IMG/VR virus record: IMGVR_UViG_3300027754_000208 | Location: 1-39,434 of that record | Direction: 5' to 3' (one strand) | Origin: a virus | DNA: 39,434 nt | Shown: positions 4,749 through 39,434 of the stretch, piece by piece | How positions within the stretch are numbered: the stretch's first letter is position 1 | Layout: each line of letters starts with the position of its first letter | Notes under the pieces: model-generated | The model's database searches: none | What the model was told of the DNA's origin: nothing | What the model saw: the letters and a program-made list of their open reading frames with translations, nothing else | Made by a program: the position numbers and the translations under genes

Positions 4749-4918
4749 TAGTTAGTCTCCTCTTCAGTCATATAATCGGCCCATAAGTCAGTCTCTTCAA
4801 TTCCCTCATAGAGAGAGCTTAGATAGTTAAGCGCGTCGCGCATTCCCTCCTCGTAGCTTGCGCCCTTAATCTGCTCTAGAATTGCGTCAGTCATAGTGTG
4901 CATTCCTTTATCTTGCAT
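4748..4918 (-). CDS. first gene of the minus-strand operon, hypothetical
   Basis: 56 residues from ATG 4918 (AAAGGCAAGGC upstream, the same spacing as before the 188-aa gene). An in-frame ATG at 4894 behind AAAGGA would give 48 residues, and the choice is open. Sequence: DAILEQIKGASYEEGMRDAL then NYLSSLYEGIEETDLWADY, acidic and helical. The promoter candidate at 4964-4991 lies about 45 nt upstream. Function unknown. Confidence 0.55.
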   Translation of the reverse strand: MQDKGMHTMTDAILEQIKGASYEEGMRDALNYLSSLYEGIEETDLWADYMTEEETN

Positions 4919-4963
4919 TGCCTTGCCTTTCGATAGTAGGAGAGCTTTCGCCCGTGTTATCAG

Positions 4964-4991
4964 TGTATACCTTACTATGCCGTATAGGCAA
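4964..4991 (-). promoter_or_regulatory. candidate promoter for the minus-strand operon
   Basis: On the minus strand, TTGCCT (4991-4986) and TATACA (4969-4964) are separated by 16 nt, followed by the first gene at 4918. A run of ten A residues (minus strand, 5015-5006) lies just upstream of the -35, as an UP element would. Each hexamer matches consensus at four of six positions, so this is a moderate prediction. Confidence 0.45.
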
Positions 4992-5016
4992 GCTCTAAAT
5001 AGCTATTTTTTTTTTA

Positions 5017-5029
5017 ACGGCGTGTCGTG
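5017..5029 (+). repeat. 13-bp element shared by both divergent regions, copy 1
   Basis: ACGGCGTGTCGTG occurs here and, identically and in the same orientation, at 31182-31194. Here it is followed after 3 nt by TAATAA (5033-5038), at the second copy after 1 nt by TAGACT. Its placement immediately upstream of a -10-like hexamer in both gene-start regions suggests a promoter or operator element, perhaps for the phage sigma-like factor or WhiB. Confidence 0.6.
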
Positions 5030-5040
5030 GGGTAATAATT

Positions 5041-5166
5041 CCCGTGATCGCGGGAAGAGAGGCGGGGCCTATAAAGGCAAGGCGGGCTGGTGTAGCTCTT
5101 GCCTATCGGGTAAGGCCGTTACTTAATCGGGGCGCTATCGGTTAGAGCTTTACAGCTTAGAGCTGT
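5041..5166 (+). other. nested inverted repeats downstream of the 13-bp element
   Basis: Three structures follow one another: CCCG/CGGG around a GATC centre (5041-5054); an outer GGCCT/AGGCC (5066-5070 with 5113-5117) enclosing AGGCAAG/CTTGCCT (5075-5081 with 5098-5104); and ACAGCT/AGCTGT with a 3-nt loop (5152-5166). If the element at 5017 is a rightward promoter, a transcript starting near 5045 would open with these folds. They could also be protein-binding palindromes in DNA. Confidence 0.5.
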
Positions 5167-5234
5167 TTAATTATGAGATGTTAATAAAGGTTAGGGTGTG
5201 CCGTAGGTACTGCCCGCCCCGCCCTTTTCCCTAG

Positions 5235-5298
5235 CAGAACAATACAGACAAGGCAGACAATAGCGCACAGAAACGCACAGTCAGGGCAAAACGGACAC
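5235..5298 (+). repeat. helically phased short repeats (iteron-like)
   Basis: A 7-base motif of the form CRSACAR recurs at about one helical turn: CAGAACA (5235), CAGACAA (5245), CAGACAA (5254), CGCACAG (5264), CGCACAG (5274), then weaker CAGGGCA (5282) and CGGACAC (5292). Start-to-start distances are 10, 9, 10, 10, 8 and 10 bp, placing all copies on one face of the helix. Phased repeats next to A/T-rich DNA are typical of initiator or terminase binding arrays. The last two copies are poor matches. Confidence 0.5.
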
Positions 5299-5452
5299 CC
5301 CGTGTTGTTAATTTTTGGTGTGTTGTAGTCTATGTACCCGTTATAAATATATTTCCTAAAGTGAACCCCTGATCTAGTAAAACCGCAGGTCAGAGTATAG
5401 ACGGTATGTGATGTGCGTAACAATAATAAAATAAAATAACGGAAAGCGGGAA

Positions 5453-5480
5453 ATGACCTATTTTTCCTGCCTTATATACA
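5453..5480 (+). promoter_or_regulatory. candidate rightward promoter before the hairpin cluster
   Basis: ATGACC (5453-5458) and TATACA (5475-5480) with a 16-nt spacer. The -10 hexamer and spacing equal those of the leftward candidate. Transcription would start near 5487, at the first hairpin of the cluster, and run into the terminase gene. Each hexamer matches consensus at only four of six positions. Confidence 0.35.
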
Positions 5481-5759
5481 GTAGGGGCTGTAAGTTTGGA
5501 AAGCCCCGTCTACTATCTGGTTGGCCTCTTGCGAGGCCCCCTAGGGCTGAGCACTGACTTACCCCTCAGTCGCTGTGACTCCTTCGGGAGTCTACGGCAT
5601 TCCGCAGTCGCGGTTTTTAGTCGGGATAGTTCTATTAATAGTTCGCGCCTAGTAATCATCATCTTCCCTAGTAAAAGGAATCTTTGATTCCGCCTGGCAA
5701 TACCTTGCCTGGTATGAAATGGGCATTCCGCCCAAAAAATTTTTTCGGCGCTTCGCGCC
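5480..5759 (+). ncRNA. structured leader or non-coding RNA candidate (hairpin cluster)
   Basis: At least seven short-loop stems follow one another: AGTAG-GGGCT with AGCCC...CTACT (5480-5514), GGCCTC/GAGGCC (5523-5538), ACTGA/TCAGT (5554-5571), GACTCC-TTCG-GGAGTC with a UUCG tetraloop (5577-5592), CCGC/GCGG followed by TTTTT (5602-5618), GGAATC/GATTCC (5677-5691), ATACC/GGTAT (5700-5715), TGGGC/GCCCA (5720-5734) and GGCGC/GCGCC (5747-5759). An AAAAAATTTTTT palindrome lies at 5734-5745. Uniformly tight 3-5 nt loops on several stems suggest RNA rather than protein-binding sites. The strand is presumed from the downstream genes. I cannot assign it to a known RNA family. Confidence 0.5.
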
Positions 5760-5775
5760 TAATAGGAGATGACAC

Positions 5776-7635
5776 GTGGCAGATAATTCCGCCGACATTG
5801 CCAAAAGAATTATCCTTGGCTGTGTAGCAGAAGGTATGACTATCGAGCAGGCTTGCGCCTCAGCTGGTAAGTCTATGAAGACCTACGAGTACTACCGCAG
5901 AACCGACAAGGTATTCTCCGATAAAGTAGATCGTACTAGGTTAGGACTCAAAGACAAGTCCTTTGCCTCTGGTGACGTCCACGACATTTCCTTCTCTGAA
6001 TTTCGTAAGCGCTTCCTGCACTCCAAAACTTTTCCACATCAGCAAAATCTAATAGATGTAATTGAGGGACGCGAGCCTAGTTGGTTCCATCCTAGTATGA
6101 AGTGGGAAACAGGACTTGCAGATAACCGCATCCTGATTAACATCCCGCCTAACCACGCCAAGTCTATGACCGTAACGGTTGACTATGCCACGTGGCAGGT
6201 AGCTCGTAACCCTAACTTTAGAATCCTAATAGTATCCCAGACTCAGCGCCTAGCGGCAGACTTCTTGTACGCTATCAAGCAAAGACTGACTCATCCCCAG
6301 TATGAGGAACTCCAGCAAGCATACGCCGCAGGTGTTGGCTTTAACTCTAAGTCAGCTTCGTGGCAGGCAACCCGCATCACCTTTGGAGATGAGCTCCGTG
6401 AGTCTGGTGAAAAGGATCCAAACATTGAAGCCGTAGGTATCGGCGGTCAGATTTACGGCAAGCGTGCCGATATGATTATTGTAGACGATGCTGTAACACT
6501 AAGCAACGCTAATGACTTTGAACGTCAAATTAAATGGCTAACGCAGGACGTCCGTTCCCGCCTTAACCCAACAGGTAAGCTCATCATTATTGGAACCCGC
6601 GTGGCTTCCATTGACTTGTACCGCGAACTGCGTAACCCAGATAGATACCCAGGCGGTTTAGTACCTTGGAAGTATCTGGCTATGCCAGCACTGCTGCAGA
6701 CAGATGAAGACCCTGATAAATGGGAAACACTCTGGCCAGCATCCGATGCTCCCTTTGATGGGCAGCTAGATTCTGATAAGACACCAGAAGGACTCTACCC
6801 ACGTTGGAATGGTCGCAACTTATATAACGAGCGCCAGTCTATGGATGCCTCCACGTGGGCTTTGATTTACCAACAACAGGACATTTCAGATGACGCTATT
6901 TTTGACCCTGTATGTGTTCGTGGTTCGATTGACGGAATGCGTAAGGCAGGTGCATTAAATGCGGGCTATCCAGGCCATCCTAAAGACCTTAATGGATTCA
7001 CTTTCATTTGCGGCTTGGATCCTGCTATGGTCGGTGATACTGCCGTTGTTTGTTATGCAATTAATCGTCACGACCATAAGCGCTATATTGTGGATACTCA
7101 TAAAATTACTCGTCCTACTCCAGCGCAGATTAGGCAGCTTATATTTGACTGGACTGAAATCTATAAACCCTCAGAGTGGATTGTAGAAAAGAACGCTTTC
7201 CAGGCTTTCTTAACACAAGACGAAGGAATCCGTCAGCACTTAGCATCACGTGGCGTTCAACTTAAAGAACACCATACTGGTAACAATAAATGGGATGCTG
7301 GCTTCGGTGTGGCTTCTATGTCTACCTTGTTTGGAACAAAGCAAGCAGATGGTAAGCACCACAGAGATAACCTTATACACGTACCTTCAGATCAAACTGA
7401 GAACATCAAAGCCTTAATCGAACAACTTATTACGTGGTCTCCAACTACTAAGGGTAAGACTGACTTAGTAATGGCGCTCTGGTTCTGTGAAATCCGCGCA
7501 CGTGAGATGCTCAACTATGGTCAGTATCAACAAAACCATATGCGTAATCCGTTCCTATCTAGGGCCGAGAAACAAAAACGAGTAGTCGTCAACATTGACG
7601 AACTGATTGCAGCACAAGAGCGACACTTCGTCTAG
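5776..7635 (+). CDS. terL: terminase large subunit with N-terminal helix-turn-helix
   Basis: 619 residues from GTG 5776 (TAGGAG 7 nt upstream). ATP-driven motor and nuclease that packages phage DNA into the procapsid. The ATPase half has a degenerate Walker A, PPNHAKSM (124-131), Walker B MIIVDD (233-238) and the coupling motif IIGTR (271-275). The C-terminal RNase-H-like nuclease has CGLDPAMVGDT (Asp415), VEKNAFQ (Glu471) and a late Asp in KTDLVMALWF. Residues about 7-55 (IAKRIILGCVAEGMTIEQAC, then an aromatic YEYYRR) look like the DNA-binding helix-turn-helix of a small terminase subunit. No separate small subunit gene is seen nearby. First gene of the late operon. Confidence 0.92.
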   Translation: MADNSADIAKRIILGCVAEGMTIEQACASAGKSMKTYEYYRRTDKVFSDKVDRTRLGLKDKSFASGDVHDISFSEFRKRFLHSKTFPHQQNLIDVIEGREPSWFHPSMKWETGLADNRILINIPPNHAKSMTVTVDYATWQVARNPNFRILIVSQTQRLAADFLYAIKQRLTHPQYEELQQAYAAGVGFNSKSASWQATRITFGDELRESGEKDPNIEAVGIGGQIYGKRADMIIVDDAVTLSNANDFERQIKWLTQDVRSRLNPTGKLIIIGTRVASIDLYRELRNPDRYPGGLVPWKYLAMPALLQTDEDPDKWETLWPASDAPFDGQLDSDKTPEGLYPRWNGRNLYNERQSMDASTWALIYQQQDISDDAIFDPVCVRGSIDGMRKAGALNAGYPGHPKDLNGFTFICGLDPAMVGDTAVVCYAINRHDHKRYIVDTHKITRPTPAQIRQLIFDWTEIYKPSEWIVEKNAFQAFLTQDEGIRQHLASRGVQLKEHHTGNNKWDAGFGVASMSTLFGTKQADGKHHRDNLIHVPSDQTENIKALIEQLITWSPTTKGKTDLVMALWFCEIRAREMLNYGQYQQNHMRNPFLSRAEKQKRVVVNIDELIAAQERHFV

Positions 7636-21884: not shown

Positions 21885-23615
<1,731 letters not shown>

Positions 23616-30378: not shown

Positions 30379-30400
30379 CCGATAGCGCGAGGCACAACAG

Positions 30401-30438
30401 AGGCTCCACCCCGAAAGGGGTGGGGCTTCTTTTTTTAT
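30401..30438 (+). terminator. strong intrinsic terminator of the late operon
   Basis: A GC-rich stem, GCTCCACCCC (30403-30412) with GGGGTGGGGC (30417-30426, one G-U), a GAAA tetraloop and the T-rich stretch CTTCTTTTTTT after it. It lies 22 nt after the holin-like stop. The opposite strand lacks a T run, so it acts rightward only. Confidence 0.92.
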
Positions 30439-33327: not shown

Positions 33328-33594
33328 ATGCTGCGGGAGCCACATCAGTTTGAAGCTCCCGCGTGTGCTGAGATTGGTGGGGATTTCTGGTTTCCTGAAA
33401 AGGGAGACGGAAGTAATTCAAGAGAGATGACGTATGCAAAGTCAATTTGCAAACAATGTCCTCATCAATCTGAATGTGCTGAGTGGGGAATTATGAAAGA
33501 AACTCACGGCATCTGGGGTGGCCTAGTGTTTAGGGATCGCCAAAGAATACGTAGGCAAAGAGGAATTAAGTTACAAGGAGGCAACGTTGCTTGA
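33328..33594 (+). CDS. WhiB-family iron-sulfur transcription regulator
   Basis: 88 residues from ATG 33328. Cys13, then CKQC (41, 44) and Cys50 give the four cluster ligands; GIWGG (61-65) is the family's turn; RDRQRIRRQRG forms the basic DNA-contact tail. WhiB proteins are confined to actinobacteria and their phages, where they bind sigma region 4 and redirect transcription. This is the best host marker in the window. It follows the previous stop directly and overlaps the ATPase gene by 8 nt. Confidence 0.93.
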   Translation: MLREPHQFEAPACAEIGGDFWFPEKGDGSNSREMTYAKSICKQCPHQSECAEWGIMKETHGIWGGLVFRDRQRIRRQRGIKLQGGNVA

Positions 33595-38460: not shown

Positions 38461-38854
38461 CAAAGGACGAGTGGATCACAATGTTACAGACTTTGCAGCA
38501 TATGGGCTTTCAGATCTTAGAGTTGGATTACCAGAACGAACAGGTGTTAATCAGACCGACACCGACAAGATAACCAATGAGTTTGTTACCGATGTCTGGC
38601 GCATCTTGGACTCAGCAGGCAATCTTCTCATTAAGAAACACCACGACTACGGTCCTAAAAACATTAGCCTTAGTCCAGGTGGACCACTTAATGGTTTGCG
38701 TGTACGTATGTGGGATAAAGTCGCCCGAATTAACAACCTTATTGACTCTAACGTTAACCCTAGTAACGAATCTTTGCGTGATAGTTTCATTGACCTTCTA
38801 AACTATTCAGCTATTGCAATGATGGTCTTAGATGGAACGTGGCCTGAAGAATGA
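38453..38854 (+). CDS. DUF1599-like (nucleotide-modification-associated) protein, 133 aa
   Basis: I use GTG 38453 (GGAGG 8 nt upstream; ATG 38447 is the alternative), overlapping the primase stop. The core IKKHHDYGPKNISLSPGGPL, then VRMWDKVARINNLIDSN and SFIDLLNYSAIAMMVLDGTW, matches the small helical DUF1599 family (K-x3-D-Y-G ... R-x3-K-x-x-R ... D-x-x-N-Y), associated with nucleotide modification or MazG-type pools. Co-occurrence with sugar genes would suit base modification, but that is inference. Confidence 0.65.
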   Translation: MNDKGRVDHNVTDFAAYGLSDLRVGLPERTGVNQTDTDKITNEFVTDVWRILDSAGNLLIKKHHDYGPKNISLSPGGPLNGLRVRMWDKVARINNLIDSNVNPSNESLRDSFIDLLNYSAIAMMVLDGTWPEE

Positions 38855-39434
38855 GCGACCTCAACCCAATACTCTTTGATTTAGTACCGTCAGTTGCTCG
38901 TACTATTCATCGTCGTTTTCATAACTGGGTTGAACTAGAAGATGTAAAGCAAGAGTGTTTTCACTGGGCTACTACTCGCGTTGATTACATCAACGACCAG
39001 TTAGCTGAGCCTGATACTGCTCAACGTAAGCACAATGAGCAGCGCATAGCGTGGCAGATGAGGCGTGTAGCAGAGCGCTACGCACGTAAGGAGAAGGCTA
39101 CTAAGTCTGGCTATCAGTTAGCCGATGAAGCCTATTACGAGAGCGCTACTATCGCTCAGCTTCTACCCTTTGTTATCGCTTCCGTCATTGACGGTACAGT
39201 CCTAGAGCAAGCACAAGAGATGCTTAAAGATGGACAACCTCGTGGCTCATCATCTCCAGCAGAAGGTGGTAACTTGCTTGCTACCTTACTCGACATCAAG
39301 AAGTGTTATCTGAAACTAGAAGCACAAGATCAATCTATCTTGCGTATGCGCTATCACGAAAACTTTAAGCTCGCACAGATAGCACAGGTACTAGAGTGTG
39401 CTACCTCTACTGCTGATCGTAGATGCACCACTGC
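38851..39434 (+). CDS. sigma-70-like factor, N-terminal part (continues at 1-176)
   Basis: ATG 38851 overlaps the previous stop (ATGA). The gene runs off the right end and continues at bases 128-176 on the circle, 210 residues in all. Residues 20-45 (HRRFHNWVELEDVKQECFHW) resemble region 2; residues about 155-205 (LEAQDQSILRMRYHENFKLA, QIAQVLECATSTADRR) form a region-4 helix-turn-helix, with an unusual middle rich in charged residues. It probably reprograms host polymerase to phage promoters, or acts as a sigma-like anti-host regulator. Followed by two small genes and the convergent hairpin. Confidence 0.75.
   Translation, partial: MSDLNPILFDLVPSVARTIHRRFHNWVELEDVKQECFHWATTRVDYINDQLAEPDTAQRKHNEQRIAWQMRRVAERYARKEKATKSGYQLADEAYYESATIAQLLPFVIASVIDGTVLEQAQEMLKDGQPRGSSSPAEGGNLLATLLDIKKCYLKLEAQDQSILRMRYHENFKLAQIAQVLECATSTADRRCTT
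39308..39434. repeat. terminal direct repeat, right copy
   Basis: Identical over 127 bases to 1-127, so the window is one full circle plus this overlap. See the left copy. Confidence 0.9.

Follow-up and report, generated by a model that had tools for sequence, protein, structure and literature searches.

The window analysed here is the whole of viral record IMGVR_UViG_3300027754_000208, a stretch of 39,434 nt. Its first and last 127 nt (1-127 and 39308-39434) are identical, and the record is therefore very probably one complete circularised genome of ~39.3 kb. Small genes run leftward from position 4918, and a rightward series that begins with terL (terminase large subunit) at 5776 and includes portal, capsid, tail and endolysin genes extends to 30378. 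The 857-nt gap between these operons is thus a divergent control region. The coordinates of the main features are collected in Table 1. Terminator-like sites inside the late unit were mildly more frequent than in shuffled sequence (26 versus 14.4, both strands taken together). A WhiB-family gene at 33328-33594 points to an actinobacterial host, a use of whiB that others have made before (PMC6802176). The nearest named relatives of the terL product were found in Streptomyces phages of the Beephvirinae (~41% identity) and in Caudovirales ct2KA10 (47%). We also observed a collagen-repeat protein of 464 aa encoded among the tail genes (22221-23615; Pfam Collagen, E 1e-42).

The gap from 4919 to 5775 proved to be gene-free, as had been claimed, in that no annotated-type gene fits it. 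As for its three short ORFs, close relatives have stops or frame breaks in those at 5496-5687 (plus strand) and 5181-5423 (minus strand) and show no match to that at 4896-5126 (plus strand); judged by sequence comparison, the ORFs across the gap are spurious and not maintained. ARAGORN and Rfam likewise bore out the absence of any tRNA or tmRNA cloverleaf from the window. Hairpins are indeed present, but the earlier view of the entire 857 nt as one structured unit, with a chain of stems from 5480 to 5759 reaching the terL ribosome site, did not survive comparison with relatives. The gap instead divides into a divergent promoter and control region (4919-5480), a structured element of ~155 nt (5481-5635) and a variable spacer (5636-5775). 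Structure is conserved across relatives in the second part only; the palindromes of the spacer are lineage-specific, and close relatives such as L001, L002 and L007 lack the hairpins at 5675-5760 or carry different ones.

Table 1. Positions of features in the gap and in the late unit; all coordinates refer to the window.
Feature	Positions	Strand	Sequence or pairing	Basis or remark
CRP/GlxR-like box	5407-5422	+	TGTGATGTGCGTAACA; relatives TGTGATGTAACTCACA or GTGACGTTAGTCAC	sequence comparison
Dyad just upstream of -10	5447-5471	+	CGGGAAAT..TTTCCTGCC	unique in genome
-10-like sequence directly before RNA	5473-5482	+	TATATACAGT; relatives TATATATAGT; Beephvirinae TATATATATAATG	
Conserved structured RNA element, probable 5' leader of late transcript	5481-5635	+		covariance model R1
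Helix A	5484-5507	+	GGGGCT (5484-5489) with AGCCCC (5502-5507), 12-nt loop	
Helix B	5523-5538	+	GGCCTC-TTGC-GAGGCC	sequence comparison
Helix C	5537-5547	+	CCC/GGG around CTA; short, overlaps helix B	sequence comparison
Helix D	5563-5588	+	CCC (5563-5565) with GGG (5586-5588), UC/UC internal loop, A5568-U5583, G5569-C5582	
UUCG hairpin	5577-5592	+	GACTCC-TTCG-GGAGTC	overlaps helix D 3' strand
Helix G, terminator-like	5602-5618	+	CCGC-AGTC-GCGG (5602-5613), then TTTTT	
Conserved tail	5619-5635	+	AGTCGGGATAGTTCTAT	GGG invariant in 29/29
Direct repeat	5648-5673	+	CCTAGTA twice, 19 nt apart	sequence comparison
terL, terminase large subunit	5776-7635	+		phrog_38, E 3e-65; Pfam Terminase_6C
Strong intrinsic terminator, probable late-unit end	30399-30430	+	14-pair stem, then T-rich tail	

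Conserved DNA on both sides of the element

A promoter-like block abuts the RNA element in all relatives, and its layout is invariant: the dyad CGGGAAAT-N7/8-TTTCCTGCC and TATATATAGTA, or near variants of them, stand directly upstream of the RNA in every case. The dyad (also given as CGGGAAAT..ATTTCCTG) gave one match in the genome with 0.05 expected at 3 mismatches, and the -10 block occurs once in the window. Most relatives carry a TGTGA-N6-TCACA-type box 50-60 nt above the dyad/-10 block; we take the box of the window to match the GlxR/CRP consensus. A protein with a sigma-70 region-4-like C-terminus is encoded across the circle junction (38851-39434 plus 33-176; Pfam Sigma70_r4_2, E 7e-5, just under the family cut-off) and could be a phage factor for the late promoter.

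Further left, the region 4919-5480 holds conserved DNA motifs, for example TACTCCCCAAATAAATATATTTCCTAAAGTGAA (5334-5365). In almost every relative the blocks TACTCCCCAAATAAATAT..CTAAAGTGAA (5334-5365) and GACCCCCC-GTTGTTAA (5294-5311) lie to the left of the promoter; they are a probable leftward promoter, and a GGGTTGTTAA block in the Beephvirinae resembles them. Paired DnaA-box-like sequences (TTATCCACA) were seen in the control region of many relatives in two alternative places, either just before terL (L064, L065, L070, L074 and L076) or left of the promoter (L178, L088, L089, L097 and L100), and possibly mark a replication origin.

In the spacer between the element and terL, the letters of the direct repeat change in step among relatives (CCGGTA, CCACTA or CCAGG, each present twice), and the repeat is a probable protein site. 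The short palindrome GGAATCTTTGATTCC(GGC) occurs at 5677-5691 of the window and, at varying places, in the spacers of L060, L069, L079, L084 and L118, in the manner of a small mobile repeat. Three relatives (L057, L068 and L084) have an insert of ~80 nt after the RNA tail that duplicates TAGTTCTAT at its ends and may be a small mobile element targeting this tail. Another conserved-looking stretch, GTATGTAGGC..CACCTACACGGCGCTGTCAGTCGCTCGGTC, follows the RNA in L106 and L056, and in L056 it stands in place of the RNA's 3' part.

Compensatory changes in the hairpins of the element

Relatives were collected as at least 80 loci found by terL, supplemented by loci that an RNA pattern picked up independently of terL. 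Anchored by TACCCC..UCGGG, the element was present at 190 places among the matches listed, some contigs being counted twice, and in at least 145 distinct full-length relatives in IMG/VR. A covariance model built from 29 relatives (R1) matched the window genome once, at 5481-5635, with 129.8 bits and recovered 18 held-out relatives with E values from 4e-10 to 6e-30.

The stretch 5480-5775 folds with a z of -4.3, better than 200 out of 200 dinucleotide shuffles (opposite strand, -3.25), and the whole 857 nt with a z of -3.1 (20 shuffles). Across 36 relatives, mean z values of the core were weak (~-1.7 on the plus strand and ~-1.9 on the minus strand), and for this reason it is covariation, not folding energy, that carries the case for an RNA.

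Compensatory base changes among relatives, which the first-pass annotation had said would support an RNA, were found beyond controls in helices A and D. For helix A, which in many relatives reads GNAAANC/GNUUUNC flanked by GG-GA and GA-CC, we used 16 distinct sequences picked by their flanking letters only. Pairing was present in 98% of cells, with 18 both-side changes (0/500 shuffles), and the score dropped once the partner strand was slid. Helix D follows the pattern CCC-UC-NN..N'N'-UC-GGG. Its inner pair was C-G in 17 and G-C in 9 of 26 distinct sequences and unpaired in none; the structure score was 0.198 compared with 0.073 in shuffles (0/500), and slid versions gave no both-side changes. 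When 154 members were placed on a terL tree, the inner pair was G-C in 83, C-G in 71 and mispaired in none. It flips at least 14 times on this tree, a number that recombination could inflate, and the 5' and 3' sides need equal numbers of changes. The outer pair was A-U, G-C or A-C, and never G-U, in the 26 sequences (A-U 91, G-C 39 and A-C 23 in the tree set).

The remaining hairpins appear to behave similarly, in that helices B and C vary with pairing retained, as do A, D and G. Helix B is replaced in relatives by CUCGC..GCGAG, CAUCGC..GCGAUG and others, and helix C by GUCC-CUA-GGAC, AUCCC-UAA-GGGAU or GGCC-CCUA-GGCC. The UUCG hairpin exists just as the first-pass annotation gave it. It uses the same GGG strand as helix D, and the two are therefore mutually exclusive; most relatives have lost it, and many carry UCGGGC-GCUAA-GCCCGA instead. 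Pairing in helix G is kept through variants such as GUCGUGC/GCACGAC, GCGGUGC/GCACCGC, GGUGGUGC/GCACCACU and CCCGC/GCGGG, each before UUUU, and its hairpin score averaged 10.9 versus 7.3 in shuffles, with 45% of segments above the shuffle 95th percentile. The U-run is short, and one subgroup (L010, L028, L064 and L065) is without it, so termination at helix G is not universal; L010, L064 and L065 of this subgroup end in UACAC/GUGUA. Conservation extends beyond the U-run (AGUYGGGRURGUUCUAU), and the blocks CUUACCCCUC and CGCUGURGCU are conserved and single-stranded. RNAalifold, applied to one global MAFFT alignment, recovered helix D and a few invariant pairs only, because hairpin lengths differ between subgroups. 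Additional pairings were considered and set aside. Many relatives could form a 5' GGGG/UUACCCC helix, a pseudoknot of loop A with UUACCCC, or a helix between the tail GGG and CCCC, but these pairings are either unchanging or disrupted in other relatives. Loop B could also form a pseudoknot with the letters preceding UUACCCC (for example AAACCUUC/GAAGGUUU in L180 and AAACCUCG/CGAGGUUU in L070), a striking feature of one subgroup that is not general.

Stems that change sequence while pairing is kept indicate a structured RNA and not DNA palindromes bound by protein. Both flanks of the element are rich in conserved DNA motifs, and the Beephvirinae genome end lies ~300 nt left of the same promoter, as might be expected if the palindromes served solely as DNA, either as a cos/pac site or as operators. 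Protein recognition would conserve letters, however, and across sets of 16 to 154 sequences the letters change; a purely DNA-level role is the least probable reading we considered, and the origin or packaging site proposed earlier, taken purely as DNA, fails to account for these stems. We are thus highly confident that 5481-5635 is a structured RNA.

Which strand is transcribed was also weighed. On the minus strand, where the element might act, for instance, as an antisense regulator of the late leader, helix D would have a tandem GA/GA in place of its UC/UC loop and G-U in place of the A-C mismatches of its outer pair, so that it would be fully paired; folding energies favour neither strand. 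Wobble counts were even (G-U 75, A-C 70) and showed no strand preference. The tandem GA/GA of helix A sits on the plus strand, however, the U-run follows hairpin G on the plus strand only, and both the promoter-like block and terL are oriented rightward. We prefer the plus strand on the grounds of promoter, U-run and gene direction, which leaves a minus-strand RNA highly improbable.

The Rfam search that had been suggested as a check matched no family to the region: Rfam 15 gave no hit in the window at gathering thresholds, in the region at E<=5, or in 14 relatives. RAGATH-32 (RF02922) was rejected as a chance alignment to the UUCG hairpin (17.4 bits against a gathering threshold of 41.8; 0/14 relatives). 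A search of 84,980 bacterial and archaeal genomes gave no match to the RNA pattern, the element had no match by DNA similarity in named phages, and a full-text literature search for an earlier account of such an element near a phage terminase returned nothing relevant. With its abundant compensatory changes, the element corresponds to the new structured RNA that the first-pass annotation had raised as one option: it is a previously unlisted RNA family heading the late genes of a large group of uncultured actinophages.

A probable leader of the late transcript

In 186 of the 190 places among the matches listed, terL lies on the same strand, 104-721 nt downstream; the remaining four places are within ~150-230 nt of a contig end. 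Loci found by the RNA pattern without using terL also precede terL, and none of the listed loci with enough sequence has the element away from it. In some relatives the interval holds a tRNA (e.g. L030), an HNH gene or a small basic ORF. These insertions and the variable distance tie the RNA to the start of the unit and not to the terL ribosome site. Its place at the head of a ~25-kb unit, at no fixed distance from terL, speaks for a leader that acts in cis and is linked to transcription instead of to translation of terL. The suggestion of a late-operon leader agrees with this arrangement, in which the element stands between a conserved promoter-like block and late genes that begin with the terminase.

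Two alternatives keep the RNA beside terL and give it another task. The mutually exclusive uses of one GGG (helix D versus the UUCG or GGGC hairpin) and the invariant unpaired blocks would suit a leader that controls terL translation, or that binds a ligand or phage protein in a riboswitch-like or autoregulatory manner. The distance to the terL ribosome site just described, with genes or tRNAs intervening in some relatives, makes this quite improbable. As for a packaging RNA or terminase cofactor with a role like that of phi29 pRNA, the element adjoins terL on the same strand, at the usual place of the small terminase gene, and no separate small terminase gene was seen upstream of terL in the window. 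We nevertheless consider it very improbable: no Rfam pRNA model matched (gathering or E<=5), and terL belongs to the ordinary phrog_38/Terminase_6C family, with an HTH-like N-terminus, and is not of the phi29 ATPase kind.

The main rival is a trans-acting small RNA of ~135 nt that would start at the same promoter and end at hairpin G and its U5 (5602-5618), with terL reached by read-through. Promoter-like sequence and a terminator-like hairpin do bracket the element, the conserved single-stranded blocks could be contact sites, and the distance to terL is free. Conserved sequence nevertheless runs past the U-run, one subgroup is without that run, and the element keeps the company of terL throughout the listed loci with enough sequence; we judge a separate small RNA unlikely and a cis-acting leader the reasonably probable choice of the two.

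The best explanation, to which we give slightly under an even chance, is a cis-acting leader RNA of the late operon that follows a late promoter and probably acts on elongation or termination. Transcription would begin at ~5481-5488 from a late promoter made up of the GlxR/CRP-like box, the dyad and TATATATAGTA, both the transcription and its start site being predicted from sequence. The first ~155 nt would fold into the hairpin series A, B/C, D and G, and polymerase would read on through terL and the genes for portal, capsid, tail and lysis as far as the terminator at 30399-30430. Hairpin G with its U5 at the end of the element, together with the competing uses of GGG, suggests control of elongation or termination, and the leader most likely would act in cis on the elongating polymerase; this part of the proposal we advance tentatively, as somewhat short of an even bet. 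Two routes can be envisaged. By itself or together with a protein of phage or host, the folded RNA might carry polymerase past hairpin G and later stops, which would parallel put RNA or lambda-type late antitermination. Alternatively, the choice between helix D and the UUCG/GGGC hairpin might set how much transcript passes hairpin G.

Comparison with known systems

A kinship with GOLLD/ROOL RNAs had been suggested from the size of the gap. These are also phage-borne structured RNAs whose function is not known, but they are found near tRNA islands and are far larger, many GOLLD RNAs exceeding 800 nt (PMC12286853), whereas the element is simpler and measures ~155 nt in a window without tRNA. With no cmscan match to either in the window, in the region at E<=5 or in 14 relatives, the comparison was dropped.

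The layout is shared by the terL leaders of the Beephvirinae, which are cultivated Streptomyces phages (for example Immanuel3, WRightOn and FlowerPower). There, CRP-like boxes, a CTGTCCC..GGGACAG dyad, TATATATATAATGGGG (also TATATATA, promoter-like and with a GGGG start), hairpins and terL follow one another in the same order. Their promoter must read rightward because the left end of the genome lies ~300 nt upstream of it. One covarying hairpin, CCUC-N..N'-UCGGGAUC (UCGGG), has N-N' as G-C, A-U, C-G, U-G and once A-C; the other hairpins are unlike those of the window RNA. An R1 search of these Streptomyces phage leaders gave no match, so the link to them rests on layout and one hairpin motif, and shared descent is proposed from this resemblance. 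More boldly, and with rather low confidence, the RNA could belong to a new class of RNA-based processive antiterminators or RNA-gated late switches that head the late operons of a very large actinophage group, shared by uncultured phages of aquatic type and cultivated Streptomyces phages, with the CCUC-N..N'-UCGGG hairpin touching the actinobacterial transcription machinery. Late-gene switching in actinobacterial phages is poorly known, and Rfam 15 holds no such element. The present RNA is compact and stands where the late genes begin in well over a hundred distinct phages. Since relatives of the same layout grow on laboratory Streptomyces, as the Beephvirinae phage Abafar does on S. albidoflavus M145 (PMC11536984), a leader role in late-gene reading is directly testable.

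In the phage lambda late leader (pR'-tR', Q-dependent antitermination), the promoter comes first, next a short leader that contains a terminator-like hairpin early on, and then the whole late operon, an order that the window shares. The recognition element for Q is in the DNA, and the lambda leader RNA is not known to be a conserved multi-hairpin fold. In the window, by comparison, no Q-like protein was identified and the element is such a fold. The put RNA of HK022, according to PMC9378689, requires no protein and works on early genes in a lambdoid phage. Both would be structured elements in a nascent phage transcript ahead of a long operon, action on polymerase being a proposal here by analogy. 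The element directly follows its conserved promoter-like block, which would put it at the predicted start of the transcript. It differs from put in its ~155 nt, in its four to five hairpins and in heading the late genes of actinophages.
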